Shown piece after piece: positions 2,766 to 23,497 of a stretch of 45,513 nucleotides of DNA. The notes beneath the pieces are model-generated. The model was not told where the DNA came from. It searched no databases and saw only the letters and a program-made list of their open reading frames with translations. The stretch is from NCBI RefSeq assembly GCF_002532075.1, contig NZ_LYXE01000103.1, forward strand, positions 1 through 45,513, written 5' to 3'. A program made the translations under genes and the position numbers. Source of the DNA: Candidatus Chloroploca asiatica. Lineage in GTDB: Bacteria; Chloroflexota; Chloroflexia; Chloroflexales; Chloroflexaceae. Positions within the stretch are counted from its first letter, which is position 1, and every line of letters starts with the position of its first letter.

Positions 2766-4286
2766 TTACCCCTGGCGGATCGCTTCTTCGATGATCGGCA
2801 GTGAAACCTCAGTGAGCCCACGGGTGCGGGCCATGCTTTCGGCGGCTTGGCGCAGTGACCGGCTCGCGCTGATGCGGGCCAGGAAGGGCACCTGTTCAAT
2901 GGCTGCGTTGAGCCGCTCGGTGGCCTCTGTGCTCCACGGCATGGTGCGGCTGGCCGCCTCCTTGTCTGCGTTGGTTGGCGGTGGCCCGGGCGGTGGTCCT
3001 TGCGGTGGCCCGCCTGGACCGCTCGGCGGCTTGATCGTCTCGACCGGCAAGAAGTTGAAGACCATGTCGTAAAAACGGTTGACGAGTTCTTGCATGATGT
3101 TGGCGGCACCAGCATAGCCCATAAAGGGCGTGCCGGTGGTGCGCCGCACGACTGGCCCCGGGAAGGTGGAGGGAATATAGTGGGTTGCCCGCGCATTCGC
3201 TTCGGCCAGGTAGATCTTTTCGTTGATGCTGCCAAAGACAAACGCAGGTGCTTTGGTGTGCAGCCGTTTGCGGATCTCGATATTGTCGGGTTCGTCGTCG
3301 CGCCGCGGACGTCCCGAACTCCACGCGATTTTCATGCCGAGTTCTTCGCCAAGCAGTTGCCGCAACCCTTCGACATAACTCCGCCCGCCCACAATCGCAC
3401 AGTCCACCGTCGCAAACCAGTCGCTCTGTGGGCCTCGCCAGAGATCCCAGACAGGCTGGAGAGTGGTACGCTTTTCGCGTTCGATGAAGGCTTCTACTTC
3501 GGCGGTTGGCGTGCCGATGAGGGCACCGAGTTCGCGCAGGAAAGCGGTGGTGCCAAAGACGCCAAAGGGCGCAAAAAGGTAGGGTCGCTCGAGTGCCTGC
3601 GCCAGCGGTTCGCCAAACTCGCGGTAGAGCACGACGTTCACCGCTGCGTCAGCTAGGTGTGGCGTCGCCGCGATGCTTCCCTCATACGGATAGACCAGAT
3701 TGATCTCGCCGCCAATGCCGGTGATGAGCCGACGCACTTCGTGCAAGTCGGCGGGCGCATTGAAGCATCCCAGCGATGGGCCAAGAATATTGACGAGCTT
3801 GGGCGAACGCGGCGGCGACTCAGGGGCGACAAAAGGCCGCCCATATTCCTCCCAGGCAAAGAGCAACGCCCGATCCCGCCCGGTCCACTCATCCTGCTCG
3901 AGCGACTGGCTCCAGAAAAAACGGGCTTCGGGATCGATCTGCGCCACCAGACGCCCGTGATCTGCGCTGATCATCTCGCTCTCGGCGGTCGAGACCACGA
4001 CCAAGCGTTTCCCTTCGAGACTGCCAATCGTGCGAAGGTCATCAATCGTTCGGATCAGGGCCTTTGCGGTACCATTGATCACATCTTCTTCGCGGATCGA
4101 GGTGGGCGTCAGATTATCCATATGGGGCAGCGCATCGGTATAGTCAGTGACGGCCATGCCGAGCAGGTTGTAGCAACCGATGGGGGCATCGCAGACAATA
4201 TGGATATCAGGAAAACAGCCAAAGACCCAGGAAGCGCCCCAGTAGGACGACGAATCAGAAATATCTCTGATCAACTGAATAGTCAT
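2766..4286 (-). CDS. bchZ: Chlorophyllide a reductase subunit Z
   Basis: A 506-residue catalytic subunit of chlorophyllide a reductase (COR), the nitrogenase-like enzyme that reduces ring B of chlorophyllide a on the way to bacteriochlorophyll. BchZ pairs with BchY to hold the Fe-S cluster and substrate; BchX supplies electrons but is not in this window. The N-terminus (YWGASWVFGCFPDIHIVCD, then GCYNLL) carries the conserved cysteines, one of which is a cluster ligand in the family. The C-terminus from about residue 450 (MPWSTEATERLNAAIEQVPF to LTEVSLPIIEEA) is the small domain shared with BchB/ChlB. Between them is a Gly/Pro linker (about residues 422-438). The ATG lies 3 bases after the bchY stop, and its GAGGAGG ribosome-binding site sits inside the end of bchY, so the two are likely translationally coupled. 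Confidence 0.96.
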   Translation of the reverse strand: MTIQLIRDISDSSSYWGASWVFGCFPDIHIVCDAPIGCYNLLGMAVTDYTDALPHMDNLTPTSIREEDVINGTAKALIRTIDDLRTIGSLEGKRLVVVSTAESEMISADHGRLVAQIDPEARFFWSQSLEQDEWTGRDRALLFAWEEYGRPFVAPESPPRSPKLVNILGPSLGCFNAPADLHEVRRLITGIGGEINLVYPYEGSIAATPHLADAAVNVVLYREFGEPLAQALERPYLFAPFGVFGTTAFLRELGALIGTPTAEVEAFIEREKRTTLQPVWDLWRGPQSDWFATVDCAIVGGRSYVEGLRQLLGEELGMKIAWSSGRPRRDDEPDNIEIRKRLHTKAPAFVFGSINEKIYLAEANARATHYIPSTFPGPVVRRTTGTPFMGYAGAANIMQELVNRFYDMVFNFLPVETIKPPSGPGGPPQGPPPGPPPTNADKEAASRTMPWSTEATERLNAAIEQVPFLARISASRSLRQAAESMARTRGLTEVSLPIIEEAIRQG

Positions 4287-4289
4287 ATG

Positions 4290-5603
4290 CTATGCTTCCT
4301 CCTCAGAAGCAGGCGGGGCAAAGAAATCGACCATGCGCTGGTAGAGCGGCTGGCGATTCATTAAATCACGCACAAAGGTGAGCGAGCCCATCACTCCGGC
4401 GGCAAGGAAGAGGGGGCGAACACTCAGGATATTGGTATAGTAGACCGACGGAATCGCAAGTTCTTTGGCATGCGCGGCGAGCGTGGTCGTCCCAATGACA
4501 AGGTCAAACGTCCAGTGCTCCATCGCCGCCTTATCGTCCTCGATCGCCTTGCGATAGACAATGGCCTCGGTACCACGGGCTTTGAGCCAGGCTTCATCGG
4601 CGGCGGTCAGCATGCTCGGGCCAATGCTGGTACTGATGTAGGGCACGTGGGCCCCCCCCTCCACCAGCAGACGGGCATAGAGCATCTCGTTGCCCTCGTA
4701 CCCTGAGAGCATAATCGTCGCGCCTTTCAGCGGTTGGCTGGCGAGGAAACCCTTGATTACGGCAACCTCTTCCTCGGCCACCCGTTCGACGAGATCTTCA
4801 TCGAGGTCGAGCGCTGCGCCAACGGCTCGCAGCCAGGCGACACTCCCTTCGGCCCCGACCGGGGCTCCCGAGACGACGCCGACCCCTCGTTCACGCATCA
4901 GGCTCACGGTTTCACGGTAGAAAGGATGGACGGCGGCCACGGCAGCAGCGCGTCCAGCTAGTTTCAACTCATCAACGTGACGCCCCGGCAGGGTTGTCAT
5001 CAAACGCCCGCCCATCTTGCGCAGCACGCCATCGATCAGCAGCGGGTCAGCGGGAAAGACTTCGCCAAGCAAGGCCAATGTCCCCGGCTCGGTCTCGGCA
5101 CTCGGATCGAGAAACCGGCGCATCACCGCCGCCAGCGCAATATCCTTGGCCTCGGGATGGGAATGGATCGCATAGGCTGGCACCCGCACGAGCACGACCG
5201 GCTTGCCATCAATCTCGGTCGGCAGCAACTCCTCGGCGAGCCCCGCAGTCTCGGCGACACAGAGCGAAAGCACCGGAATAACCGAGACATTCTGCTCTTT
5301 GGCGGCCTCCGTGATCGCGGCAAGCGCAGCCTCCTGCACCAGGCCACCCGAAAGCTCGGCGGTACCGAGGGCGGGGGCAATAATGCTCTTGCGCGACGCA
5401 TAAAAATGGGTCACAAAGGTCAACCCATAGAGACATCCGGTATCGGTAATCATCGCTGGTTGCGCACCCTCGATCCGCGAGAGCACCCGCAAAGCACCAA
5501 ACGCAGGGCACATCGTCTGCGGATGAAGTTTGCACGTCCCTTCTTTGAATGGCTCCTGCGGTTTCTCATCACCGGCAGGAGTCAACGGTATTATTTCAGC
5601 CAT
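4290..5603 (-). CDS. bchY: Chlorophyllide a reductase subunit Y
   Basis: A 437-residue partner of BchZ in the NifD/NifK-like catalytic component of chlorophyllide a reductase. Near the N-terminus, GTCKLHPQTMCPAFGALRVL and ITDTGCLYGLTFVTHFYASR supply conserved cysteines that in the family help bind the [4Fe-4S] cluster. The rest fits the Oxidored_nitro fold, including LSGYEGNEMLYARLLVEGGA and a C-terminal half with FDLVIGTTTLAAHAK. The length is normal. It is the first gene of a bchY-bchZ pair transcribed away from a sensor kinase gene. AAAGG about 10 bases before the ATG is the ribosome-binding site. Together with bchZ it shows that the host makes bacteriochlorophyll. Confidence 0.96.
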   Translation of the reverse strand: MAEIIPLTPAGDEKPQEPFKEGTCKLHPQTMCPAFGALRVLSRIEGAQPAMITDTGCLYGLTFVTHFYASRKSIIAPALGTAELSGGLVQEAALAAITEAAKEQNVSVIPVLSLCVAETAGLAEELLPTEIDGKPVVLVRVPAYAIHSHPEAKDIALAAVMRRFLDPSAETEPGTLALLGEVFPADPLLIDGVLRKMGGRLMTTLPGRHVDELKLAGRAAAVAAVHPFYRETVSLMRERGVGVVSGAPVGAEGSVAWLRAVGAALDLDEDLVERVAEEEVAVIKGFLASQPLKGATIMLSGYEGNEMLYARLLVEGGAHVPYISTSIGPSMLTAADEAWLKARGTEAIVYRKAIEDDKAAMEHWTFDLVIGTTTLAAHAKELAIPSVYYTNILSVRPLFLAAGVMGSLTFVRDLMNRQPLYQRMVDFFAPPASEEEA

Positions 5604-11725: not shown

Positions 11726-12052
11726 ATGAGTTGTACGCAACACGAGAACCATCCGCATGTGCATAGCGAGCATTGCGGCCATGTACGGGTACGCCACGAG
11801 GGGCATGTTGATTATCTGCACGATGGGCATCTGCATCATACCCACGCGGGCCATTACGATGAGCATGTGATTGCGGTGAGTGCAACCAATCCCGATGGCT
11901 GCGCCCCCATTGCGTGCGCATGTGGTCATGTCGGCTGTGGGCATCCGCTCGTGCCCCACGGCGACCATTTCGACTATCTCGTCGACGGGCGCCTGCACCA
12001 CGTTCACGGCGACCATTGCGATGATCACGGCCCCCTTGAGGTCGTTGCCTAA
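11726..12052 (+). CDS. Histidine-rich, duplicated metal-binding protein
   Basis: A 108-residue cytoplasmic protein with about 26 histidines and several cysteines, built from two similar halves. Each half has CGHV, then H-x(3-4)-H-x-DYL-x-DG-x-LHH, then H-x-x-H-x-DEH or H-x-x-H-CDDH. Such patterns bind transition metals (Zn, Ni, Co or Cu). It could serve as a metal store, chaperone or sensor; no transporter or regulator is adjacent, and I cannot name a characterised family. GAGGAGA precedes the ATG. A hairpin at 12062-12086 follows the stop. Confidence 0.75.
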   Translation: MSCTQHENHPHVHSEHCGHVRVRHEGHVDYLHDGHLHHTHAGHYDEHVIAVSATNPDGCAPIACACGHVGCGHPLVPHGDHFDYLVDGRLHHVHGDHCDDHGPLEVVA

Positions 12053-12876: not shown

Positions 12877-14520
12877 TTATTTCTGTTGCAACCCTTGCAA
12901 GGCGTTGCTGGCGGTGAGCCAGCCGCGGCCGGGGAAGATGCGGGCGATCTGCGGGGCGAAGAGCGGTGAGTTGCCGAGCACGTTCCACGGGGGGCCGTCG
13001 GCAATCAGGCCGCCTTGTCCGAGAATCAGCACGCGGTCGGCAATTTCGGCGACAAATTCGACATCGTGTGAGACGACGATGATCGCGCTGCCTTCCCGAC
13101 TCCATTGGCGCAAGAGGCCGCCGAGCATGGCTTTGGCTTCGTAGTCGAGCCCCCGCGTTGGTTCGTCAAGCAGCAACCCTCCCGGTCGCGTGATGCTGAT
13201 CGCTCCCAGGGCGACCCGCTGCCGTTCGCCGATGCTCAGGTCGCGTGGGTAGCGCTCGCGCCGTTCGCTTAGCCCCAGTTGCGCAAGCAGTTCGTCAATG
13301 AGCGCTTCGTTCACCGGCAGGCGGTGGTTGCGCAGGGTGGTGCGCAGTTCGTCGGCGACGGTGTCGGCGAAGAGCATGCTGTCTGGTTCCTGGGGCAGGC
13401 AGGCAAGCTCGCGGCTGATCGCGGCAACATCGCGCCCGGCAATGGAACGCCCTGCAATGCGGATCTCGCCTCGCCGTGGCCGCAAGAGGCCGATCATGCA
13501 TTTGAGCAGGGTGCTTTTGCCGATGCCGTTGCGCCCCATGAGCAGGGTGATTTCGCCCGCCGCAATGGTCAGATCCAGGTTGCGCAAGACCGGTGTGTTG
13601 CCGTAGCCTGCTTCGAGGCCACGTATTTCTAGGTAGGGACGCGGTGGTCTGGTGGGGCCTGTTGCACTGGCCCGCCCCGCCTCCCCGGTCTTCCCCACAG
13701 CTATTGCATCCTGTTGGGCCAACCCTTGCCTCGTGGCAAAGGGACGTGCCTCTTTGACGCTCAGGGGCAGCGGCTGCCACCCGGCGGCACGCGCTACGGT
13801 GACCAGCGGCGGGCAGAGCGGACTGGTCGCCAGAATTTCACGCGGGGGGCCGCTGACTACGCGCCCGGCCCGATCAAGCGCTACAACGAGATCGACGATC
13901 GGCAAGACCCGCTCGGAGCGATGCTCGGCGAGCACGATCGTCAGCCCCAGGTCGTGATTGAGCCGCACCAGCGCTTGCAAGACGTCGTCCGCCGATTGCG
14001 GGTCAAGTTGGCTCGTTGGCTCATCGAGCACCAGCACCTCTGGTTGCAAGGCGAGTGTTGCGGCAATTGCCACGCGCTGACGTTCGCCCCCCGAGAGCGT
14101 CGTCAGCAACCGGTCGCGTAGCGGCGCGAGATCGAGCAGGTCAAGCACCTCTTCGACCCTGATGCGCAGTTGCTCGCGTGGCACGGCCGCATGTTCTAGC
14201 GCAAAGGCGATCTCGTCTTCGACCCGCTCCAGCACAAATTGCGCCTCGGGGCTTTGAAAGACCATGCCGACATGGCGACTCATTACCCGTGGCCCGAGGG
14301 CAATGGGATCATAAGCGGCGATCCGCACGCTGCCCGCAACCTCGCCGCCACTGAAGTGAGGCACGAGCCCGTTCAGACAGCGGAGCAGCGTTGATTTGCC
14401 GCTGCCCGATGGGCCAATCACCAGCGTAAAGCTCCCGGCAGGCAGCGTCAGGCTCACTTGGTCGAGACAGACCTGCGGCTGGTCAGGGTAGCGATAGGAT
14501 AGCTGCGCAAACTCAATCAT
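12877..14520 (-). CDS. ECF transporter energising ATPase, fused double (EcfA-EcfA')
   Basis: A 547-residue protein holding both ATPases of an energy-coupling-factor transporter in one chain. Domain 1 (residues 1-270) has Walker A GPSGSGKST, a Q-loop (FQSPEAQFV) and signature LSGGERQRVAIA followed by VLVLDEPTSQLDP. Domain 2 (about residues 290-547) has GRNGIGKST, LSIGERQRVALG and LLLDEPTRGLDYEA. FQSPEAQ is typical of EcfA. A linker at about 255-300 joins them. It is the last gene of the riboswitch-led operon, and its ATG overlaps the end of the EcfT gene by 4 bases. It should power vitamin import through EcfT and the S component encoded just upstream. Confidence 0.93.
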   Translation of the reverse strand: MIEFAQLSYRYPDQPQVCLDQVSLTLPAGSFTLVIGPSGSGKSTLLRCLNGLVPHFSGGEVAGSVRIAAYDPIALGPRVMSRHVGMVFQSPEAQFVLERVEDEIAFALEHAAVPREQLRIRVEEVLDLLDLAPLRDRLLTTLSGGERQRVAIAATLALQPEVLVLDEPTSQLDPQSADDVLQALVRLNHDLGLTIVLAEHRSERVLPIVDLVVALDRAGRVVSGPPREILATSPLCPPLVTVARAAGWQPLPLSVKEARPFATRQGLAQQDAIAVGKTGEAGRASATGPTRPPRPYLEIRGLEAGYGNTPVLRNLDLTIAAGEITLLMGRNGIGKSTLLKCMIGLLRPRRGEIRIAGRSIAGRDVAAISRELACLPQEPDSMLFADTVADELRTTLRNHRLPVNEALIDELLAQLGLSERRERYPRDLSIGERQRVALGAISITRPGGLLLDEPTRGLDYEAKAMLGGLLRQWSREGSAIIVVSHDVEFVAEIADRVLILGQGGLIADGPPWNVLGNSPLFAPQIARIFPGRGWLTASNALQGLQQK

Positions 14521-15548
14521 GGTAGATAACGGTCGCCCAGGCGTACCGCCACAGGCATCAGCAGGCCCATCAGGGCGAGGGCGAGCAGTGGCTCGAAGAT
14601 TGGCAATTGCAACATCGGATAGGGCGTGTAGGCGAGACTCGCCCGCCCCGGCCATGGTGCCAGCACGGCGATCAGGGTCAGGCCGGCCCCAAGCAACACT
14701 ATCATATCACGGATGCCCCGGCGATAGAGGCGATAGCGCGTGCGCGGGGCTTGCTGGCCCGACTCACGCAGCGCCCAGAGGATCAGGCCAGTGCCGATGA
14801 GCATGGTCAGACTTGCCGCCACGACTTGCCCCCAGGCGAACTGCAAAAGCAGCCCGGCAAAGAGGGCGGCCAGCCCGCCGACGAGCATCATTCTGACCTG
14901 ATTGGAGGGCGGATCGGCGGCGAAGCCGCGCGCCGCCATCGCTTCGGCGAGCTGCAAGGCTCGTTCGAGTCCCCCAATCAGCAAGGGCAGCAGCAGTGGC
15001 AGCCCGTCGCGCCAAACCCGCACCTGATGCCCCCGGAGTTGCTGGGCTTCACGGACTTGCCCGGCGAGCCGGATCGTCAGCGGGACATAGGTGACGGCGA
15101 CGCTCATCACGACGGCCAGCGGATAAAAGGCGCGGGGCACGAGGCTGATCAGGGCGCTGATTGGCATCGCGGTGCCAAACGCGCCAAATCCGGCCACCAG
15201 CGCACTGAGCACCAACCCGTTGATCATGCCAAAAACGACGGCTTCGAGCGTGATCGGGCCACCGATCAGCCACCACGACGCCGGCAGCGCCACCAGCACC
15301 GTATCGCCATAGCGGATCGTTGCGGCATTGAAGAGCGCGCCAAACGAAACCGCGATCACCGCAAAGAAGATCGGATCAAGCGGCGTCGCGCGCCCCGTCG
15401 GGCGTTCGGTTTCGGCCACGAGGGTGAGCCCGAAGAGCAGGAGCAGCAAATAGAGCGGATTCCGCGTAAGCGACACCGTCAACAGCGTCGTACCCAGCCA
15501 GATCGTCCAGGTGACCGGATGCACCAGCAGCAGCGAGCGCGGCGTCAC
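14517..15548 (-). CDS. ecfT: ECF transporter transmembrane component T
   Basis: A 343-residue membrane protein of the CbiQ/EcfT type, which couples ATP hydrolysis in EcfA to toppling of the substrate-binding S component. At least six hydrophobic segments are present. The two short Ala-Arg-Gly-like coupling motifs are represented by LRGHQVRVW and AMAARGFA, in the cytoplasmic helices that contact the ATPases. The start is a GTG at 15548 in a GTGA overlap with the S-component stop; GAGGGA lies just before it. The longer open frame to 15956 overlaps the S gene and has no similarity there. At about 340 residues it is longer than typical EcfT (about 265), with extra C-terminal membrane segments. 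Confidence 0.9.
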   Translation of the reverse strand: MTPRSLLLVHPVTWTIWLGTTLLTVSLTRNPLYLLLLLFGLTLVAETERPTGRATPLDPIFFAVIAVSFGALFNAATIRYGDTVLVALPASWWLIGGPITLEAVVFGMINGLVLSALVAGFGAFGTAMPISALISLVPRAFYPLAVVMSVAVTYVPLTIRLAGQVREAQQLRGHQVRVWRDGLPLLLPLLIGGLERALQLAEAMAARGFAADPPSNQVRMMLVGGLAALFAGLLLQFAWGQVVAASLTMLIGTGLILWALRESGQQAPRTRYRLYRRGIRDMIVLLGAGLTLIAVLAPWPGRASLAYTPYPMLQLPIFEPLLALALMGLLMPVAVRLGDRYLP

Positions 15549-16369
15549 AGTCCCTCGCTCAGCGGTGCTTGCCGCAACACAAACGCAAAGCGGCGCTGGA
15601 ACCGGCGCAAGACGCGCAGAATTGGCCCACCAAACGCGGCAATAAGCAGACCATTGCCGAGACTCCCTGCGATATCCCAGAGCAGCGACGTCGCAAGGTA
15701 GAAGGTCAGATAGCGGCGCACCGTCTCGATCAAGCCGATGCCTGCCTGCCAATATTGTTCCACCGGGCCGCTCGCAAAAGGCCAAAACCAGAGGTTCATG
15801 ATCGCCCCATACCCAAACCCCCAGATCGCCCCAAAGACGGCGAGCACCAGCACCTCGCGGTAGCGCCCGACGCCTCCGAGCAACTGGATTGGCCCCCGAC
15901 AAAGCGGTGCCGTCAGACCGACCCAACCTGCCGTCAGCATCTGAAAGGGCAGCCACGGACCAACGCCGCCGGTAATCAGCGCCGAAACGAGCAGCGTCAT
16001 TGTGCCCATCAAAAAGCCAAACGAGCCACCAAAGAGATAGCCGGTGAGGATGATCAGGACGAAGATCGGTGAAAAGCCGCCGGGCAACGGTAACGCAACA
16101 TCAATAAAGCGCAGGATCGCATTCATCGCCACGAGCACCCCGAGCAACGCCACAAGCAACGCATGCTCGGCAGCGCGCTGCGCCTCCAACAACAGCGCCA
16201 GAAAGCTCAGGCCCACCAGGGTCGTCAGGATCACTGGGGCTGTCCCAGCGTGCGCCACCCCGCCTCCACTCGTCGCCATCGTCGGCAACCAGAACGGATA
16301 GAGAAAGGCAATGATCCCGATCACCGTCGTGAATCCGATGATCATCCCGCTCATCAACCGGTCACGCAT
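15545..16369 (-). CDS. ECF transporter substrate-specific (S) component, probable cobalamin/corrinoid type
   Basis: A 274-residue polytopic membrane protein with about six hydrophobic segments. The central block NAILRFIDVALPLPGGFSPI, then GYLFGGSFGFLMGTMTLLVS and GVGPWLPFQM, resembles S components of the CbrT/CblT kind reported for cobalamin. It would bind the vitamin in the membrane and deliver it when coupled to EcfT/EcfA. Substrate assignment rests on the riboswitch and on the exported capture proteins encoded upstream. The ATG at 16369 lies next to the stop of the DUF4430 gene, with AGGGGA as ribosome-binding site; an open frame from 16429 would overlap that gene. Confidence 0.85.
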   Translation of the reverse strand: MRDRLMSGMIIGFTTVIGIIAFLYPFWLPTMATSGGGVAHAGTAPVILTTLVGLSFLALLLEAQRAAEHALLVALLGVLVAMNAILRFIDVALPLPGGFSPIFVLIILTGYLFGGSFGFLMGTMTLLVSALITGGVGPWLPFQMLTAGWVGLTAPLCRGPIQLLGGVGRYREVLVLAVFGAIWGFGYGAIMNLWFWPFASGPVEQYWQAGIGLIETVRRYLTFYLATSLLWDIAGSLGNGLLIAAFGGPILRVLRRFQRRFAFVLRQAPLSEGL

Positions 16370-16370
16370 A

Positions 16371-17627
16371 TCACGTCCCCTGCTCACGGCGTGAACGTGC
16401 CGCAACGAGGGCCCCGGCAAGGGCGACACTCATCACCAGAAACCAGGTCAGGCCCTGGCGCTGATTGGTTGGCGCTGGTGTCGGTGTGGGCACCGCCGTT
16501 GGCGACGGCTCAGGCGTGGCGGTCGGGGTTGCCGTTGCCACCGGGATGATCGTCGGTTCCTGGAACGTGACGGTCGGTCGCACCACTGTCGGTTCAGCCC
16601 CTGCCTGTTGCACCATCGGCAGCCAGACCGGAGCGGGCGAAGGAGTTATCAGGGCGATCAGGGCCATCGTCTGATCGGGCGTCTCTTCGGGCGTCGTTTC
16701 GTAGGCAGGATCGGGCTGCGTCGAGATCACTGCTGCCTCGCTCACTGGCGTTGGGGGTGCAATGGAGGGAACTTCAGGGAGACCAGACGCGGGCGTTGCC
16801 GTGCTTGCGACAGTTGGCGTTGGTGGCGCTAGCGTCGCTGTTGGCGGCACCGCCGTTGCCGTGGCTTGCGTAGTGGCCGTGGCAGGCAGCGCCGTTGCGG
16901 TCACGGTTGTTGGCGAGGGTTGCGGCGTACTGGTTGCCACGGGCATGATCACCGGCGCATCGGTGGGCGGCGGTGGCGCAGCAGGCGCATCGGTTGGCTG
17001 AGGCGTGGCCGTCGCGGCGCTGGTCGCGGTTGGCGTTGCAGTCGCCGTGGGTGTCGCAGTCGCCGTGGGTGTCGCGGTCGCCGTGGGCGTTGCGGTCGCC
17101 GGTGGCACACAGATCTCCTCGAAAGGCACGGCAGGCGGTTCTACGCCAAGGCCAATGCCGCCTGGCCCCCACGACCAGCCGTCAACATCGCCATCCTGCA
17201 GGATGCGTGAACTCGAGCCCCCCTGTGAAAAGACCCAGCGATTGTTATTCCATTGATAGTAGGCCCAGTAACGACACTGCTGGCCTGGGGCAAGCGTACA
17301 CTGACAGAAACAGCCCTCGGCGGGATAATTGCAGCCTACCTGTTCGATCTTGCAGACGGCCGATCCCTGACCGGGATCAAAGGCCACAATGGTGGTCAGC
17401 CCTGACTGGCGCAAAGCCTGTTCCCCCGTCATCTGCCCCGCCGCGCCAAGGTCAACGCATGCGGTGCGTACGCTGCCATCGCCAAACTGCACGACGAGCC
17501 CCGCCTGCGCCGGGTTCTGCGCAACCGGGGCCGCCAGACTCGCCGGAATGGCAGGCACAAGCCCGCTCAACAAGGCAAGACAGCTTAACATAAAAATAGA
17601 GGCAGTGAGTTTGAACAGGTAGCGCAT
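16371..17627 (-). CDS. Secreted DUF4430 (transcobalamin C-domain-like) protein with membrane anchor
   Basis: A 418-residue exported protein. Residues 1-33 are a signal peptide. Residues 43-160 form a DUF4430-like domain: TGEQALRQSGL, then RYWAYYQWNNNRWVFSQGGS and LQDGDVDGWSWGPG. This beta domain is the one found at the C-terminus of intrinsic factor/transcobalamin. At least six cysteines (around GCNYPAEGCFCQC) suggest disulfides or metal binding. A long Thr/Pro/Ala linker with ATPTATATPTAT repeats (about 175-385) ends in one membrane helix (LTWFLVMSVALAGALVAA) and RSRREQ, so the domain should be displayed outside on a stalk. It lies between the alpha/alpha-barrel gene and the ECF S gene, which suggests it hands the vitamin to the transporter. 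Confidence 0.85.
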   Translation of the reverse strand: MRYLFKLTASIFMLSCLALLSGLVPAIPASLAAPVAQNPAQAGLVVQFGDGSVRTACVDLGAAGQMTGEQALRQSGLTTIVAFDPGQGSAVCKIEQVGCNYPAEGCFCQCTLAPGQQCRYWAYYQWNNNRWVFSQGGSSSRILQDGDVDGWSWGPGGIGLGVEPPAVPFEEICVPPATATPTATATPTATATPTATATPTATSAATATPQPTDAPAAPPPPTDAPVIMPVATSTPQPSPTTVTATALPATATTQATATAVPPTATLAPPTPTVASTATPASGLPEVPSIAPPTPVSEAAVISTQPDPAYETTPEETPDQTMALIALITPSPAPVWLPMVQQAGAEPTVVRPTVTFQEPTIIPVATATPTATPEPSPTAVPTPTPAPTNQRQGLTWFLVMSVALAGALVAARSRREQGT

Positions 17628-17679
17628 CGTTTTTTCTGGCCTTCCACACGCGGAATGTTACGTTACCGTCTTTCGCGTT

Positions 17680-17770
17680 TCCGCCCCCCTCCTAACCTCC
17701 CCCCGCTTGGGGGAGGCGTCCGGCTCCCTCCCCCAGCAGGGGAGGGCTGGGGAAGGGGCGGACGGGCGTG
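17680..17770. repeat. C/G-rich paired hairpins between the two capture-protein genes
   Basis: The 155-base gap between the barrel gene and the DUF4430 gene contains CCTCCCCCCGCTTGGGGGAGG and CTCCCCCAGCAGGGGAG side by side. The two stems can also pair with each other. Such an element may limit read-through or stabilise the upstream mRNA. Confidence 0.6.
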
Positions 17771-17782
17771 AATGGTAACCCG

Positions 17783-20116
17783 TCACCGCAACACAAGCGG
17801 AAGATACGTTCGGAACGGCTCAACCGTTGTCACTGTCGTCAGGGTTGTGCTTACGGCATTGCCTGCCTGCACGCCATCGCTGTCGTTCACAATCGTGCGT
17901 AGTTCGTAGGTTCGCGGCATGGTTACGGGCAGGGTCGCGGTAAAGACGCCAGGTGCCCGCGTCAGCGTCGCTGTGAGCCATTCACTTGCCCCGGCGGCAC
18001 GCCATTCGAGTTCAGCAGTAGCGTCACCATTGAGATCACCGCCAAAGGGGAGGCTGACGGCAATGCTGTTGCCCCAGCGCCCCGTGGTTGGTCGCACGAC
18101 CAGGCGATCGGGATTGGGGCCGCGCAGAACCGGGACATACTGCGTTAGATCGGTTCCCGCCGGCAGCGGATAGCTGCGGGCGAGCAGCGCGGGCACCGCC
18201 TGCCAGGTCGCAAAGGCGTTCGCCGTCCCAGGCGTAAAGAACGAACCCTCTTCCCAGGTGTAGGTCAGCGGGCCATCGGGCTTCTGATAGAGACCGAGCG
18301 CGTCGAAGGGGCTGCGTCCAGCTTTGCGCCAGTTGCTGCGCAGATCTTCGCCCGCAGCGATCAGGCCCTGAATAGCGTAGGCCGTCGAGTTGGGATTACT
18401 CCAGCCACCAAGCGCATCCTGCTGGGTACGCAGGAAGGCGACCGCCGCGGCAATCGCCGGATCGTCTGGTGCGACCCCGGCGGCAATGAGCGCCTGCATC
18501 ACCAGGCCCGTCGTATCAACACTGCCCCACGAGCCATCTTCGGCATTCTGGCGCTGGCGCAGGAAATCAAGCGCCTCGTCGGGAATCGCTTCACCTGCGG
18601 CACGCAGGCCCAGGATCGCAAAGGCCTGACTGAGCGGAGTCGCCGCCCCGCTGCTAAAGCCACGCACAGCGGTGGTACTATAGGCGCCAGTCGGTTGGAG
18701 GGTTGCCTGAAGATCGGTGACAAGATTGAGCGTTCCCCCAGGACTAGCGGCAAAGGCGGTTGGATCTTCGCCCGCCGCAACGATGCCAAGGAGCGCCTTG
18801 CCCGTCGCTGCCGGGAAGAGATTGGTGCTGACATCGCCAGCGGTCGTGATCACACGGGTATAGGTCAAGACCTGATTGCGCAAGAAGGCGAGCGCCGACG
18901 CCCCACCGGGCTGGTTCACACTGTCGGGTGCAAAGCCTGCCGCGCTAACGGCCAAGATGACATCGAGCGTCGCCCCGACGTCGGGCGTTGTGCCAAACGC
19001 AGCCCATCCGCCACTGCTCGTCTGCGTTGTTTGCAGCCAGGCGAGCGCACGTTCGGCCCGCTGGCGGCTCCCAAAGATCGGCAGTGGCGCCTCGGCCAGC
19101 CCAGGGATCGCATTGGCGGTGCCAAGGGCATTGCCAAAACCGCCATCAGCCTGTTGCAGGGCCAGCAGCGCCGTCTGCGGATTGCCGTTGACGGCTTGCC
19201 AACTCAAGGTCACCGGGAAGAACCCGGCAGCGGCGGCGGCCTGGATCACGGCAGCCGTCGAGTCGGCATTCGGCGACCCATCGAAGCCCCAGCTCCCATC
19301 ATCGATCTGGCTCGCGGCGAGAAAGCCGAGCGCATCCTGGATCACCGGCGCGGTCGGGGCAACGCCATTGGCAAGCAGCGCCTGAACAATCAACGCGGTC
19401 GTATCAACATCGCCCCCAAACCCAAAGCCCCAGCTGCCATCGGTATCTTGCAGATCAAGAAGATAGGTCAGCGCTTGCTCTGAAGGCAAAGCTTGCTGTG
19501 CTGCCGCCAGACCAAGCAGCGCATAGGCCTGATTCAGTGGGCCGGCGGCACCACTGGAAAAACCGAGCGATGCGGTACTGCTATACGCGCCCGTCGCAGG
19601 CTGGTAGGTTGCCGTCAGCGCGGCAACCAGATCGAGCGGCTGCGCGGTAGGATCCGTCCCGTAGGCCATCGGATTCGCGTCACCGGCCACCGCCGCGATA
19701 ATCAGCATACCGAGACGACCGGGCAGCGGACGCCCCTGGAGATCGTGCGTATAGCTATAGGCGCGGGTGGTCAAATAATCGTGGACACTCTTGCCCTCGT
19801 CGCTGAGCAGATAGTCACCAGGCAGGCGGGCTGCGCCAAGGGCAAAGGCCACCCGGACACTCGTGAAATCATCGCTCTGGCCGGGGGTAAAGCCAACAAA
19901 ACCGCCATCGTTGCGCTGGACACCATTCAGATACACAAGCGCACGGGTGATCGGGGCCGTATCAAGAATGGGATAACTCGTCCGGGGTGTCGCAAAAGCC
20001 GCCGGTGCGGCCACCGGGGCAACGGCAGGAACGCGGGCCGCTGCGATGCCAACAAAACCAAGCAACGTACATACTGCCAGACCACAGGCCAGCACGAACA
20101 AACGAACCTGATGCAT
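17783..20116 (-). CDS. Secreted alpha/alpha-barrel (prenyltransferase/squalene-cyclase-repeat, transcobalamin N-domain-like) protein
   Basis: A 777-residue exported protein and first gene of the riboswitch operon. A signal peptide covers about residues 1-40. Two tandem alpha/alpha-barrel units follow (about 45-330 and 345-640), each made of helical repeats ending in motifs such as DGSWGFG, DGGFGN, GGWAAFG and GSWGSVDTTGLVMQAL. The fold is shared by terpene cyclases, prenyltransferases and the N-terminal domain of intrinsic factor/transcobalamin. The DxDD catalytic acid motif of squalene cyclases is not seen, and the protein is secreted, so ligand binding fits better than catalysis. The C-terminal 110 residues look like an Ig-like domain ending in YLPLVLR. 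GAGGAG spaced 8 bases from the ATG at 20116 sets the start; an upstream GTG at 20125 has no such spacing. Confidence 0.85.
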   Translation of the reverse strand: MHQVRLFVLACGLAVCTLLGFVGIAAARVPAVAPVAAPAAFATPRTSYPILDTAPITRALVYLNGVQRNDGGFVGFTPGQSDDFTSVRVAFALGAARLPGDYLLSDEGKSVHDYLTTRAYSYTHDLQGRPLPGRLGMLIIAAVAGDANPMAYGTDPTAQPLDLVAALTATYQPATGAYSSTASLGFSSGAAGPLNQAYALLGLAAAQQALPSEQALTYLLDLQDTDGSWGFGFGGDVDTTALIVQALLANGVAPTAPVIQDALGFLAASQIDDGSWGFDGSPNADSTAAVIQAAAAAGFFPVTLSWQAVNGNPQTALLALQQADGGFGNALGTANAIPGLAEAPLPIFGSRQRAERALAWLQTTQTSSGGWAAFGTTPDVGATLDVILAVSAAGFAPDSVNQPGGASALAFLRNQVLTYTRVITTAGDVSTNLFPAATGKALLGIVAAGEDPTAFAASPGGTLNLVTDLQATLQPTGAYSTTAVRGFSSGAATPLSQAFAILGLRAAGEAIPDEALDFLRQRQNAEDGSWGSVDTTGLVMQALIAAGVAPDDPAIAAAVAFLRTQQDALGGWSNPNSTAYAIQGLIAAGEDLRSNWRKAGRSPFDALGLYQKPDGPLTYTWEEGSFFTPGTANAFATWQAVPALLARSYPLPAGTDLTQYVPVLRGPNPDRLVVRPTTGRWGNSIAVSLPFGGDLNGDATAELEWRAAGASEWLTATLTRAPGVFTATLPVTMPRTYELRTIVNDSDGVQAGNAVSTTLTTVTTVEPFRTYLPLVLR

Positions 20117-20135
20117 TGCTTCCACTCCTCAAGGT

Positions 20136-20180
20136 ACAAACAAACAGCGACCGCACGACAAAAATGTCGGGCGGTCGCTG
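20136..20180 (-). terminator. Intrinsic terminator of the cobalamin riboswitch
   Basis: On the minus strand CAGCGACCGC and GCGGTCGCTG form the outer stem (20145-20180), and the inner CGACA-TTTT-TGTCG extends it, with one mismatch between. TTTGTTTGT follows at once. It lies between the aptamer and the first start codon, where a transcription-terminating expression platform is expected. Confidence 0.6.
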
Positions 20181-20282
20181 TAGATCTACCGGCAGGGCCA
20201 CGATCGCGGGACCAGGTGGCTGCACTACGGGTCAGTCATAATCGTCCGCCTTCCTCAAAGCACGCGAAGGAAAGGTCAGCAA

Positions 20283-20404
20283 AGATAGCGGCGCTCGACC
20301 TGACTCTGCATCCTTTGAGGGAGGCATTACAGTTGCGCGACAGTGCCGGACTCACACCGGCTTCGGCTTTCACCCTGATCATAAAACCAGAGGAACCGCT
20401 ATCT
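20283..20404 (-). promoter_or_regulatory. Cobalamin riboswitch aptamer
   Basis: The minus strand shows the conserved core of the cobalamin riboswitch in order: GGTTCC, then CCGGTGTGAGTCCGGCACTG (20360-20341), TCGCGCAACTGTAA, and the B12-box-like GCAGAGTCAGGTCGAGCGCC. The closing stem P1 is a perfect 9 bp (AGATAGCGG at 20404-20396 with CCGCTATCT at 20291-20283). It sits about 165 bases upstream of the alpha/alpha-barrel gene. High cobalamin should switch the operon off. This fixes the operon's role in B12 or corrinoid metabolism more firmly than any protein in it. Confidence 0.94.
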
Positions 20405-20473
20405 GACTGGAATATACAATTGGAAAATGTCCCGCGTCGCACCTCTTTTGTGAAGCATATGCAACGCCGTGCT

Positions 20474-20502
20474 ACTATAGCACCGGATTACCTCTGCGTC
20501 AA
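20474..20502 (-). promoter_or_regulatory. Promoter of the B12 uptake operon
   Basis: On the minus strand, TTGACG (20502-20497), a 17-base spacer, then TATAGT (20479-20474). The transcript would start about 60 bases before the riboswitch P1 stem. The -10 box lies in the 15-base palindrome GTGCTA-TAG-TAGCAC (20470-20484). The gene-free stretch 20117-20761 holds this promoter, the riboswitch, its terminator and the leader of the divergent gene. Confidence 0.6.
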
Positions 20503-20761
20503 CTTACACTACTCACCATCTAGGCCCAATACCTTGCAAATAAGCTCACGCGAAGGTACGCGAAAAACCTTCGCGCCTTTGCGCCTTGGCGTCAAAAAAA
20601 CAATCCTATCCTCATGGTAGAAGCGGCCCAAGGGCTATATCTGGTAGAATGATTCCTGGAGTGCTTGCCTGGGGCGGTGTGTGTGCCCTTGTCAAGCGAA
20701 ACTGGAGTTGTGGGGGGCCCCCCATGTGCAGTGTCGAAGCATCTATATTGGGAGTTTGAGT

Positions 20762-23497
20762 ATGAAGTTACGTTCTGATGGTGTGTTTCGTTTGTTACGG
20801 TTATGGCTTTTTGTTGCTTTATTGATGGGGATGGTCGGGATGGCCTTTGGGGTTGCCTCGACTACCGCTGAGGAAGGCTCGCTTGCTTCAGGTGGTTTGA
20901 CCGCCTACCTCCCCTTTGCGGCGCTCCCGCAACCGCCCGAACCGCCTCCACCCCCGCCTCCACCCCCGCCACCGCCTTTCCCTGCGCGCCAGGTGACGAT
21001 TCGCCCCGTACCGTTGTCCCAGGTGCAACGCGGCTCAACGCTGTCGGTTGAGTATCGCTTTCGTAACCAGAGCACTACTGATATGATTGCAAGCGACACC
21101 CTGCAACTGGTCTATCAGTCGCGCTTGCTTTCCTTTACGTCGGTAAGCCCAGCACCTGGGGATCGTTACCTTGCCCATGATGGCAGCACCGTGACCGTCG
21201 AAGTGCGGAATATCGCGCCCGGTGAAGAACGTCGTGGGCGGATCAATTTCTTTGTGCGCCGTGATGCGCCGCTGCAGTCGCGGATTGCCCTTTTTGCGGT
21301 CTTCCGCTGTACGCCAGACCAGACCTGTAACTCGAACCTGGCTGAAGTGGAAGTCCTTGTCAATGACGATGAGAGCACAACGGGCGGCATCTTTACCATG
21401 GGTGTTTCGCCGGATCGTGGCCCGGTTGGGACGGCCCATGTCTTCCAGGGGTCACGCTTCCTGCCCGGCGAAGAGTTCCGCACCTGGCTCAATATGCCAG
21501 GTGGCGGGGTCATGCCTCTCTCGATCACCGGGAATGCTGATGCCCAGGGCAATATCCGCTTCACCTTCGGCTCGGGTGGGCTGACCCAGGCGGGCTTCTA
21601 TAGCATGGTGGCCCACGGGATGAGCAGTTCGGTGCAGAATGTGGCCCCCTTCATTGTGCAGATCAATGGTCAGCCCGCGACGATGCCCGGGATGGCAGGC
21701 GGGGCTGAGTTGACGCTGCCCGTGAGTGCCTTTGAAATTCCTGCAACCCCTGTTCTCGCCGGAACGGGCGGTCTCGCCGGTACCGTGCGTGATGCAACGG
21801 GAACCGGGTTGGCCGGGATTGTCGTTGAAGTACTGGATAGCCAGGGTGACATCATCACCGTCACGCGCACTATTACTGATGGCGTCTATACCATTGCAAC
21901 TGGCTTAGAGACGGGAACCTATACTGTCAAAGCGTTGCCCGGCGCAACGGGCGATCCGGCGTTGGCGCTGCTTGGCACGATCAGCAGCGATCCGGTGCAG
22001 GTCACCGAGCCGAATCTGACGCCCGAAGTCAATCTGCTCGTGCCGGCAGTGGGTGCTTTGCGTGGAACCGTGACTGCCGATGGTACGCCCGTGGGTGCTG
22101 TGCGGGTGACTGCGGTTGATGCTGACGAGAACCCGGTTGCCGGGACACTCACCGATGATACCGGTACCTATACCTTGAGCAATGTCCCGGCAGGGACGTA
22201 CACGTTGCGCTTCGATCAGCGCGCCATCCGCAAGAGTGGGGCGTTTGGCTCAACAACGCTGGCCGATGTCGCGGTGACGGCGGGTGAGATCAGCCAGGTT
22301 CCGCCTATCGCTCTGCCGGCTTCGACCCAAACCGGTGCCATCCGTGGTACGGTCAAGGCTGCCGATAGCCAGGCCGGGCTCGGTGGGGTCATTGTTGTCC
22401 TGGCCCGCCTTGGGGCCAATGAGGCTGAGTTCCCGTTTGTCACCGTGACTCAGACCGATCCCGATGGCACCTATGTCAGCAAGCCGCTGCTCCCTGGTGC
22501 TTATCGTGTGCAGTTTGTGACCAGTTTTGCCTCGGTGACTACCACCCTCGGTTACGGTGGCGCACTCTATGCCAGCAACCCGGTGACCGTTACCGAGGGC
22601 CTGCTGGTCTCGAATGTTGATGCCGAACTGGTTGCCGGTGGCAGCATCGCGGGAACCGTCAGCGGCGATGGCGCTGATGGGCTTGCTGGTGTCTTGGTTG
22701 TAGCCACGGATGGCAACAACATCATCCGTGCGCTGGCGCGTACCAATGCAACCGGCGGTTACCGCATTGGCGGGCTCGAGGCGGGCGAGTATACCGTGCG
22801 CTTCCTGGCGAGTCGTGCGCCTGCGGCTAGTGTGCGGGCGTTCTTCAACAGCGCTCTCGATCCGGTTCTGCTTGGCGCAGGCGAAAATCTGAGCAACCGC
22901 GATATCACGTTGAATCGCGGCCATCAGATCATTGGCACGGTGACTGCCGCTGATACCGGCGCACCGCTGAGCCAGGTCATCGTGATCTTCGAGGACGACT
23001 TCACTGGAAGCGTCATCGGGGCGAGCCTCACCGATGCAACGGGTGCATATAGCTCACCGGCCATTGATAGTGGGTCATACCGTGTCCGCTATACGACCCG
23101 GCTCTCACCGAATGCAACGACGCGTCTCTATCAGAGTGTTGATGGGGACTCCTTCCTTGTACCGCGCTCATTGGGCACAACCAGGCGTGACATCGCCCTT
23201 GAGCCTGGTGGCGCGATCAGTGGCCGGGTTAGTGCCATAGCTTCGGGCGAAGGCCTGGCCGGCGTTGCGGTGGTGGCACGCGTCAACGGCAACGCCGTCG
23301 GCAGTGTGGTCACGGACAACTTCGGCCAGTACGACCTGGCTGGTCTGCCGGCTGGGGAAGTGACGCTGGATGTCTACACCGAAGCAACGCCGTTGCTCAC
23401 GGTGCGCCGTTACACGAGTGTCGTCGCCAGCGCAACCGTGACGGTGGTGGTTGGCACCACGGTCGAACAGGATCTGCAACTGGATCTTGTCCCCTAG
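20762..23497 (+). CDS. Large secreted repeat protein with carboxypeptidase-regulatory-like domains
   Basis: A 911-residue exported protein. A signal peptide (residues 1-38) is followed by LTAYLPFAALPQPPE and a run of prolines (about 57-75), probably a stalk. A first beta domain (about 80-190) resembles CARDB/DUF11 adhesive modules; a second spans about 200-310. Six similar beta-sandwich repeats of about 90 residues follow, each starting GxxxGTV or GxxSGRV and containing a turn such as GTYTLSNVPAGTYTLRF, as in CarboxypepD_reg domains. No protease or glycosidase residues are seen, so a surface or adhesion role is likely. The ATG at 20762 has GGGAG upstream. The protein has no C-terminal anchor. 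It is divergent from the B12 operon; its promoter probably overlaps the same region. Confidence 0.8.
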   Translation: MKLRSDGVFRLLRLWLFVALLMGMVGMAFGVASTTAEEGSLASGGLTAYLPFAALPQPPEPPPPPPPPPPPPFPARQVTIRPVPLSQVQRGSTLSVEYRFRNQSTTDMIASDTLQLVYQSRLLSFTSVSPAPGDRYLAHDGSTVTVEVRNIAPGEERRGRINFFVRRDAPLQSRIALFAVFRCTPDQTCNSNLAEVEVLVNDDESTTGGIFTMGVSPDRGPVGTAHVFQGSRFLPGEEFRTWLNMPGGGVMPLSITGNADAQGNIRFTFGSGGLTQAGFYSMVAHGMSSSVQNVAPFIVQINGQPATMPGMAGGAELTLPVSAFEIPATPVLAGTGGLAGTVRDATGTGLAGIVVEVLDSQGDIITVTRTITDGVYTIATGLETGTYTVKALPGATGDPALALLGTISSDPVQVTEPNLTPEVNLLVPAVGALRGTVTADGTPVGAVRVTAVDADENPVAGTLTDDTGTYTLSNVPAGTYTLRFDQRAIRKSGAFGSTTLADVAVTAGEISQVPPIALPASTQTGAIRGTVKAADSQAGLGGVIVVLARLGANEAEFPFVTVTQTDPDGTYVSKPLLPGAYRVQFVTSFASVTTTLGYGGALYASNPVTVTEGLLVSNVDAELVAGGSIAGTVSGDGADGLAGVLVVATDGNNIIRALARTNATGGYRIGGLEAGEYTVRFLASRAPAASVRAFFNSALDPVLLGAGENLSNRDITLNRGHQIIGTVTAADTGAPLSQVIVIFEDDFTGSVIGASLTDATGAYSSPAIDSGSYRVRYTTRLSPNATTRLYQSVDGDSFLVPRSLGTTRRDIALEPGGAISGRVSAIASGEGLAGVAVVARVNGNAVGSVVTDNFGQYDLAGLPAGEVTLDVYTEATPLLTVRRYTSVVASATVTVVVGTTVEQDLQLDLVP

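Follow-up and report, generated by a model that had tools for sequence, protein, structure and literature searches.

Genes for cobalamin importers of the energy-coupling factor (ECF) type (CbrTUV) are reportedly listed, perhaps together with accessory proteins, in the 2009 ECF paper of Rodionov et al. and in SEED. For ECF-CbrT, a structure has been deposited (6FNP), and the complex carries both cobalamin and cobinamide (PMC5997447). On the side of the animal B12 carriers, the alpha and beta domains of human transcobalamin, when expressed apart, assemble only upon the addition of cobalamin, and the authors of that study cite earlier work in which intrinsic factor behaved likewise (PMC5599065); because the human halves can be brought together by their ligand in this way, a naturally split pair is a workable binder. 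Here, a stretch of 45,513 nucleotides from Candidatus Chloroploca asiatica (contig NZ_LYXE01000103.1; referred to as the window) is analyzed with regard to a five-gene operon on its minus strand, which quite probably encodes a scavenging system for corrinoids (the B12 family) with a split, intrinsic-factor-like, two-piece capture device. The ligand is very likely a corrinoid, and it is likely bound jointly by two exported proteins, an alpha/alpha-barrel protein (barrel) and a beta-domain protein (beta); its delivery to the S component encoded in the same operon is rather likely.

The operon, its riboswitch and its importer

The operon extends from a promoter-like site at 20502 down to 12877, with the genes in the order barrel, beta, S, T, and A, and comprises the following features (aa, amino acids; nt, nucleotides):

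20474..20502, minus strand: sigma-70-type promoter-like site (TTGACG, 17 nt, TATAGT, with TG before the second hexamer)
20273..20415, minus strand: cobalamin riboswitch aptamer RF00174 (49.6 bits, gathering score 31.5, full model 1-189)
20144..20181, minus strand: hairpin with a stem of 11 bp + 5 bp, then a U-rich tract (identified by folding energy)
17783..20116, minus strand: exported alpha/alpha-barrel protein, 777 aa from ATG (Pfam; near the SCO2321 family)
16371..17627, minus strand: exported beta-domain protein, 418 aa, with a beta domain of the intrinsic factor/transcobalamin type (near the SCO2322 family)
17109..17516, minus strand: modelled beta domain, 136 aa (AlphaFold; predicted local distance difference test, pLDDT, 92.3; predicted template modelling score, pTM, 0.86)
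15545..16369, minus strand: ECF S component, CbrT-like, 274 aa from ATG (PF12822, E 4.8e-9, 36.9 of 30.7 bits)
14517..15548, minus strand: ECF T component, CbiQ family, 343 aa from GTG (PF02361, E 1.3e-7, 32 of 25 bits)
12877..14520, minus strand: ECF A component, two ATP-binding cassette (ABC) domains in one chain, 547 aa from ATG

A minus-strand operon with a promoter, a cobalamin riboswitch, two exported proteins, S and T components, and a double ATPase is what the original prediction had described, and this layout was confirmed with Rfam, Pfam, and a motif scan. The promoter-like site agrees with the consensus at 10 of 12 positions, one such site being found against a mean of 0.3 expected from shuffled sequences, and RF00174 is the sole match at gathering level within the window. 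The region around the hairpin (20126-20200) folds with -39 kcal/mol (z -6.25), a value equalled by none of 200 shuffles; the hairpin, which was not listed by a terminator scan of the region, is likely the expression platform, acting as an intrinsic terminator. The likely true gene starts are ATG 20116, ATG 17627, ATG 16369, GTG 15548, and ATG 14520, and the beta, S, T, and A genes are closely packed, with the S gene starting 1 nt past the beta stop, T overlapping S (GTGA), and A overlapping T (ATGA).

All three importer components, including the fused EcfA-EcfA' that had been proposed, are supported by Pfam: two ABC_tran stretches (E 1.4e-58) lie in the single ATPase chain, which also scores 331 bits against TIGR04520, over the cut-off of 315. 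The S component has PF12822 as its sole Pfam match, and when a profile of its family (28 members) was compared with all PDB chains, the best match was 6fnp (ECF-CbrT; E 8.4e-8), with FolT at E 0.0019; judged by sequence, the S component in the window is related to the CbrT-type cobalamin S component.

The two exported proteins and their fusions

The beta protein displays, as read directly, a signal-like N-terminus, a Thr/Pro-rich stalk, a C-terminal hydrophobic helix, and a basic tail. Its domain model, built from a 62-sequence alignment, was compared with known structures, and the first 17 rows returned by Foldseek were occupied by transcobalamin (TC), haptocorrin (HC), intrinsic factor (IF), and 3u7z, which we take to be the solved structure of DUF4430 (E 1.0e-3 to 5.8e-2, probability 1.00). 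With VIA-align, 15 entries from these groups yielded Z scores of 11.2-12.5 and root-mean-square deviations (rmsd) of 1.9-2.3 Å over 96-99 residues (Z 11.2-12.3 for the beta domains of TC, HC, and IF; Z 12.5, 1.9 Å, and 96 residues for 3u7z), and the next, unrelated folds drop to Z 5.7. In this comparison with the carriers in the PDB, which concerns the beta domain alone, the fold of TC, HC, and IF is therefore shared (Z 11-12, about 2 Å). The earlier description as a DUF4430 protein with a stalk and a membrane helix holds for the latter two elements, which were seen directly, and for the fold, but not for Pfam: the gathering score of DUF4430 (PF14478) was not reached by the beta protein of the window, a scan of window and genome gave essentially no match, and 2 of the 62 aligned beta domains matched at all, at best with E 0.078. 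Given this near absence from Pfam, the label is one of fold. Comparison of a beta alignment profile with PDB sequences returned chance matches alone (best E 0.053). Against SCO2322_fam (NF040672), the beta protein of the window scores 21.4 of 85 bits, below the cut-off, and 55 of the 62 aligned beta domains match this family with E <=0.01.

The barrel protein matches the Pfam families SQHop_cyclase_C (E 9.8e-19) and SQHop_cyclase_N (E 8.9e-13), and also NCBIfam NF053823 (SCO2321_fam; E 3.1e-28), in the last case below the cut-off (98.8 of 300 bits). It aligns over its full length to the barrels of relatives in which barrel and beta are fused, and the AlphaFold model of one of these (L134, Brevefilum; pLDDT 90.9, pTM 0.85) contains two alpha/alpha barrels followed by the beta domain; on the basis of this model and the full-length alignment, the barrel protein of the window would likewise consist of two barrels, in agreement with the secreted double alpha/alpha-barrel protein of the original prediction. 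At its C-terminus (17783-17830, minus strand), the sequence YLPLVLR gives a sub-threshold match (E 0.18) to the NCBI YLP-box putative sorting motif.

Natural fusions link the two proteins directly. Barrel and beta share one frame in 15 open reading frames (ORFs), and both orders occur: beta takes the C-terminal position in the Anaerolineaceae/Brevefilum group (L040, L044, L045, L133-L136) and in L145, and the N-terminal one in L076, L138, L139, L141, L142, L148, and the partial L153, with L040/L136 and L045/L134 lying on the same contigs; a further frame with barrel and beta was found in G214 (C108, 585 aa). If the two proteins function in physical contact, fusion in both orders would be expected. 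When the fused L134 model was submitted to Foldseek, ranks 1-13 were taken by TC and HC (E from 1.7e-10), with about 420 columns aligned over barrel and beta together; the model was folded from a smaller alignment, as MAFFT misplaced beta-only rows when these were many. Separately, S, T, and A share one open frame of 1363 aa at L076:8446-12534 (G128).

Distribution and rival explanations

The distribution of the genes was surveyed in a sample of 400 Chloroflexota genomes, in which S was found in 101 (103 matches) and beta in 104. Both were present in 94 genomes, S only in 7, beta only in 10, and neither in 289, so that the two occur together in 94 of the 111 genomes having either (Fisher p 1.4e-70, with relatedness ignored); in G100, G124, and G398, three of the ten genomes with beta only, the beta matches are weak. 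The strong co-occurrence of S and beta across Chloroflexota supports the original prediction, and the system extends beyond the phototrophic Chloroflexota considered there, being widespread in Chloroflexota and also found in Actinomycetota. Among the actinomycetotal loci listed, barrel, beta, T, A, and S occur together in Knoellia (L200) and Phycicoccus (L205), and beta, A, T, and S in Nocardioides (L192) and Janibacter (L196, at a contig edge); one Streptomyces S locus (L212) has a riboswitch, T, A, and S, with no match to barrel or beta.

A total of 101 S loci (the window and 100 others) was examined, contig-end loci being kept and G187:C15 (a second, minor match) and the weak G196 being omitted. 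Barrel and beta accompany S at 36 of these loci, beta only at 21, barrel only at 4, and neither at 40; among the last, at least 9 have <2.2 kb of sequence upstream, and others represent true stand-alone S genes. The upstream sequence contains a cobalamin riboswitch at 36/36, 21/21, 0/4, and 3/40 of these classes, respectively, and hence at all 57 beta-bearing S loci, 53 by a core pattern and 4 by Rfam; the pattern had no matches in 1.4 Mb of mononucleotide-shuffled loci and missed some true riboswitches, which were recovered by Rfam on 30 loci. Beta was counted with a masked profile (57/101; 58/101 with the unmasked one), and the T component with a single-pass profile, as the iterated version drifted. 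S genes without an adjacent barrel or T match are found at L050-L056, L058-L067, L069, L071, L073, L074, and L077. The putative beta-only capture loci of the f25 and f49 genomes (L095, L100-L102, L106, L108, L109, L111-L113, L115, L117-L125) nearly all have T and A. A tandem beta pair stands beside one barrel at L034, L037, L047, L057, L156, L162, L163, L168, L191, and L209, and two beta domains share one 645-aa frame in G353.

The order of the pair is strict. At 36 of the 36 S loci holding both, the barrel gene precedes beta in the same orientation or is fused to it; barrel 5' of beta or fusion was likewise found at 42/42 loci holding both among 80 named GTDB loci listed, and at 19/19 among 20 beta loci, mainly from genomes with a stand-alone S or none. 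These three sets overlap in part, the named set repeating some sample contigs, and order was scored by domain positions, as untrimmed ORFs overlap and put 10 loci (7, 2, and 1) outside the order. In unfused pairs, beta follows barrel within 600 nt in 28/33, 34/37, and 16/19 cases in the three sets, respectively; seven unfused pairs are 2.7-3.0 kb apart, with T and A between. The beta locus was fetched for 13 genomes with a stand-alone S: in 12 of them this locus, apart from S, comprises barrel, beta, and T (and A in 7), and in the 13th, G370, a 5.6-kb contig holds barrel and two beta.

Neighboring genes bear on the ligand. Five relatives that lack S were looked at (L222, L223, L224, L225, L226): barrel and two beta genes adjoin an FecCD permease and an ABC ATPase (Pfam) in L222, which L225 is like by resemblance only; a Peripla_BP_2 protein (Pfam) lies between barrel and beta in L223, which has two beta genes; beta adjoins CobT and CobS in L224; and L226 has barrel and beta. 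At L213, barrel and beta are followed by a histidine phosphatase, CobS, and CbiQ. Of the 20 beta loci fetched, 14 have a cobalamin riboswitch, 11 of which were detected by Rfam and 3 by the pattern only. The S family, the riboswitches, and the BtuC-type or cobalamin-salvage neighbors point to corrinoids as the probable substrates.

The beta fold, the fusions, the co-occurrence, the riboswitches at 57 of 57 loci, the CbrT match, and the salvage and BtuC-type neighbors together support the central idea of the original prediction, namely that split IF/TC halves feed an ECF importer. In the mechanism envisaged, low intracellular cobalamin would leave the riboswitch in a state that lets transcription pass the hairpin, following the logic of an off-switch. 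The alpha/alpha barrel and the beta domain would then close around the corrinoid and hold it between them, and the Thr/Pro stalk of beta would keep the capture complex at the membrane. The CbrT-like S component would take over the ligand there, and T and the double ATPase would drive its import.

Several observations weigh against this interpretation. The barrel protein of the window did not reach the cut-off of Pfam PF01122 (Cobalamin_bind; E 0.23, 10.8 of 25 bits), and among the fused relatives L044 gave E 0.027 (13.9 bits), with L040 and L076 not listed. By both sequence and Z, the barrel resembles terpene cyclases more closely than TC: the barrels of L134 have terpene cyclases as their nearest structures (best Z 24.6), and when a fused/barrel profile was compared with the PDB, the best 60 of 68 rows included no TC, HC, or IF, and consisted of terpene cyclases, prenyltransferase beta subunits, complement/macroglobulin TED domains, and a few others. 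Barrel 2 and beta of the ligand-free L134 model, aligned with TC, HC, and IF, give Z 19.6-20.7 with an rmsd of about 22 Å, so that both domains are recognized in a predicted placement that would not be holo-TC-like. No riboswitch was found at 6 of the 20 fetched beta loci (L213, L222, L223, L224, L230, L231). Moreover, the genome of the window has a second cobalamin riboswitch (L001:1501-1650), followed by a BtuF-like lipoprotein (199-1275, G000:C77; PF01497, E 5.9e-44; NCBI BtuF model, E 6.7e-34, below its cut-off), so the operon is not its only corrinoid route. Lastly, at 21 of the 57 S loci with beta, no barrel gene is present. One of the genomes concerned, G375, carries a barrel on another contig; the other 20 (f25, f49) have no barrel match (9) or weak partial ones (11; <=42 bits, against 327 in the window genome), which may be squalene cyclases, and with no strong barrel match in these 20 genomes, beta is apparently able to work without a barrel.

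These last observations, along with the proximity of the barrel family to squalene-hopene cyclases, are the mainstay of an alternative that we consider unlikely, in which beta alone binds the corrinoid and the barrel performs another surface task, such as holding the complex at the envelope or acting as an enzyme of terpene-cyclase or glycosidase fold. Human TC beta alone can bind cyanocobalamin (CNCbl; PMC5599065); the fusions in two orders and the strict barrel-then-beta order speak against this alternative. A role of the barrel as a cyclase is further disfavored by the lack of DxDD, presumably the catalytic motif of class II terpene cyclases, in the window barrel (the string is present in 4 of 103 barrel ORFs) and by the export of the protein, which would place it away from isoprenoid substrates.

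Less probable still is an importer that serves for a precursor or a fragment of corrinoids (cobinamide, alpha-ribazole, or a lower-ligand base) and not for complete cobamides. The pair, or beta, adjoins CobS, CobT, a histidine phosphatase (read as CobC-like), or an aminotransferase at L213, L224, and L230, as would suit late assembly and salvage, and cobinamide is a substrate of CbrT; however, the beta fold is that of carriers of whole cobalamin, and CbrT, the solved S component nearest to that of the window, accepts cobalamin in addition to cobinamide (PMC5997447). Import of cobalt or another B12-linked substrate, with an exported pair unrelated to it, is very improbable: cobalamin riboswitches also control cobalt ECF importers, such as cbiMNQO in Clostridioides difficile (PMC11477304), T is a CbiQ-family protein, and the ATPase matches cbiO, but the S component matches only PF12822 in Pfam, its family profile is best on CbrT, and S and beta go together in most genomes having either.

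Elsewhere in the window, a divergent 938-aa protein that looks secreted and has six carboxypeptidase-regulatory-like stretches is encoded at 20681-23497 (plus strand), and a small His-rich ORF (108 aa) with no Pfam match at E 1e-4 lies near the operon at 11726-12052 (plus strand). BchY and BchZ (the latter just below its cut-off), subunits of chlorophyllide a reductase, are found at 2766-5603 (minus strand) and fit a phototroph.

Comparison with described systems

To our knowledge, the capture of trace cobamides outside the cell by bacteria without BtuB is poorly known, and we are aware of no settled origin for the animal B12 carriers; with the pair described here, both questions can be put to a direct test using two soluble proteins. 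Neither the type of importer nor the fold of beta is new. Searches of titles, abstract beginnings, and text passages in an open-access library found no description of their combination, of the split and fused forms, or of how widely they occur, which does not establish absence from print. If the proposed split capture device is real, two protein families that carry no functional name at NCBI would gain a function, capture proteins would be named for many ECF B12 importers, and a natural split version would be at hand of a binder whose human counterpart assembles only with its ligand. There is perhaps an even chance that bacteria possess an intrinsic factor of their own, a clamp-like surface corrinoid carrier of barrel and beta, made as two chains or as one in either order, wired by riboswitches to ECF or BtuC-type importers, and maybe sharing ancestry with the carriers of animals.

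Among the systems described to date, class II terpene cyclases (squalene-hopene cyclase) are closest to the barrel in sequence and fold, but the barrel of the window lacks DxDD, is exported, and is encoded in an operon with a B12 riboswitch. The barrel and beta domains match NCBIfam SCO2321 (NF053823) and SCO2322 (NF040672), respectively, which are presumably the Streptomyces versions of the pair, their adjacency in S. coelicolor being suggested by gene numbering; the window proteins nevertheless score below the curated cut-offs, and the family names state no function. BtuG of Bacteroides is similar in that a surface protein captures a corrinoid for an importer and is encoded at riboswitch-associated loci, whereas it is a seven-bladed propeller, a different fold, and works with BtuB (PMC6143338). 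ECF-CbrT of Lactobacillus delbrueckii (6FNP; PMC5997447) is the best solved match of the S family and shares with the operon the S, T, and ABC ATPase components and the corrinoid context; in contrast, the operon of the window is dedicated, with its own T component, a one-chain double ATPase, a riboswitch, and two exported proteins.

The animal carriers IF, TC, and HC differ in several respects: the window encodes two separate exported chains, with two barrels and a beta domain on a stalk and membrane helix, its partner is an ECF importer rather than an endocytic receptor, its barrel falls below the Cobalamin_bind cut-off of Pfam, and the domain placement modelled for L134 departs from theirs. 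Even so, the same beta fold is paired with an alpha/alpha barrel in both, and some bacterial relatives, such as that of Brevefilum, are single chains with the barrel first and the beta domain second, as in the animal carriers.

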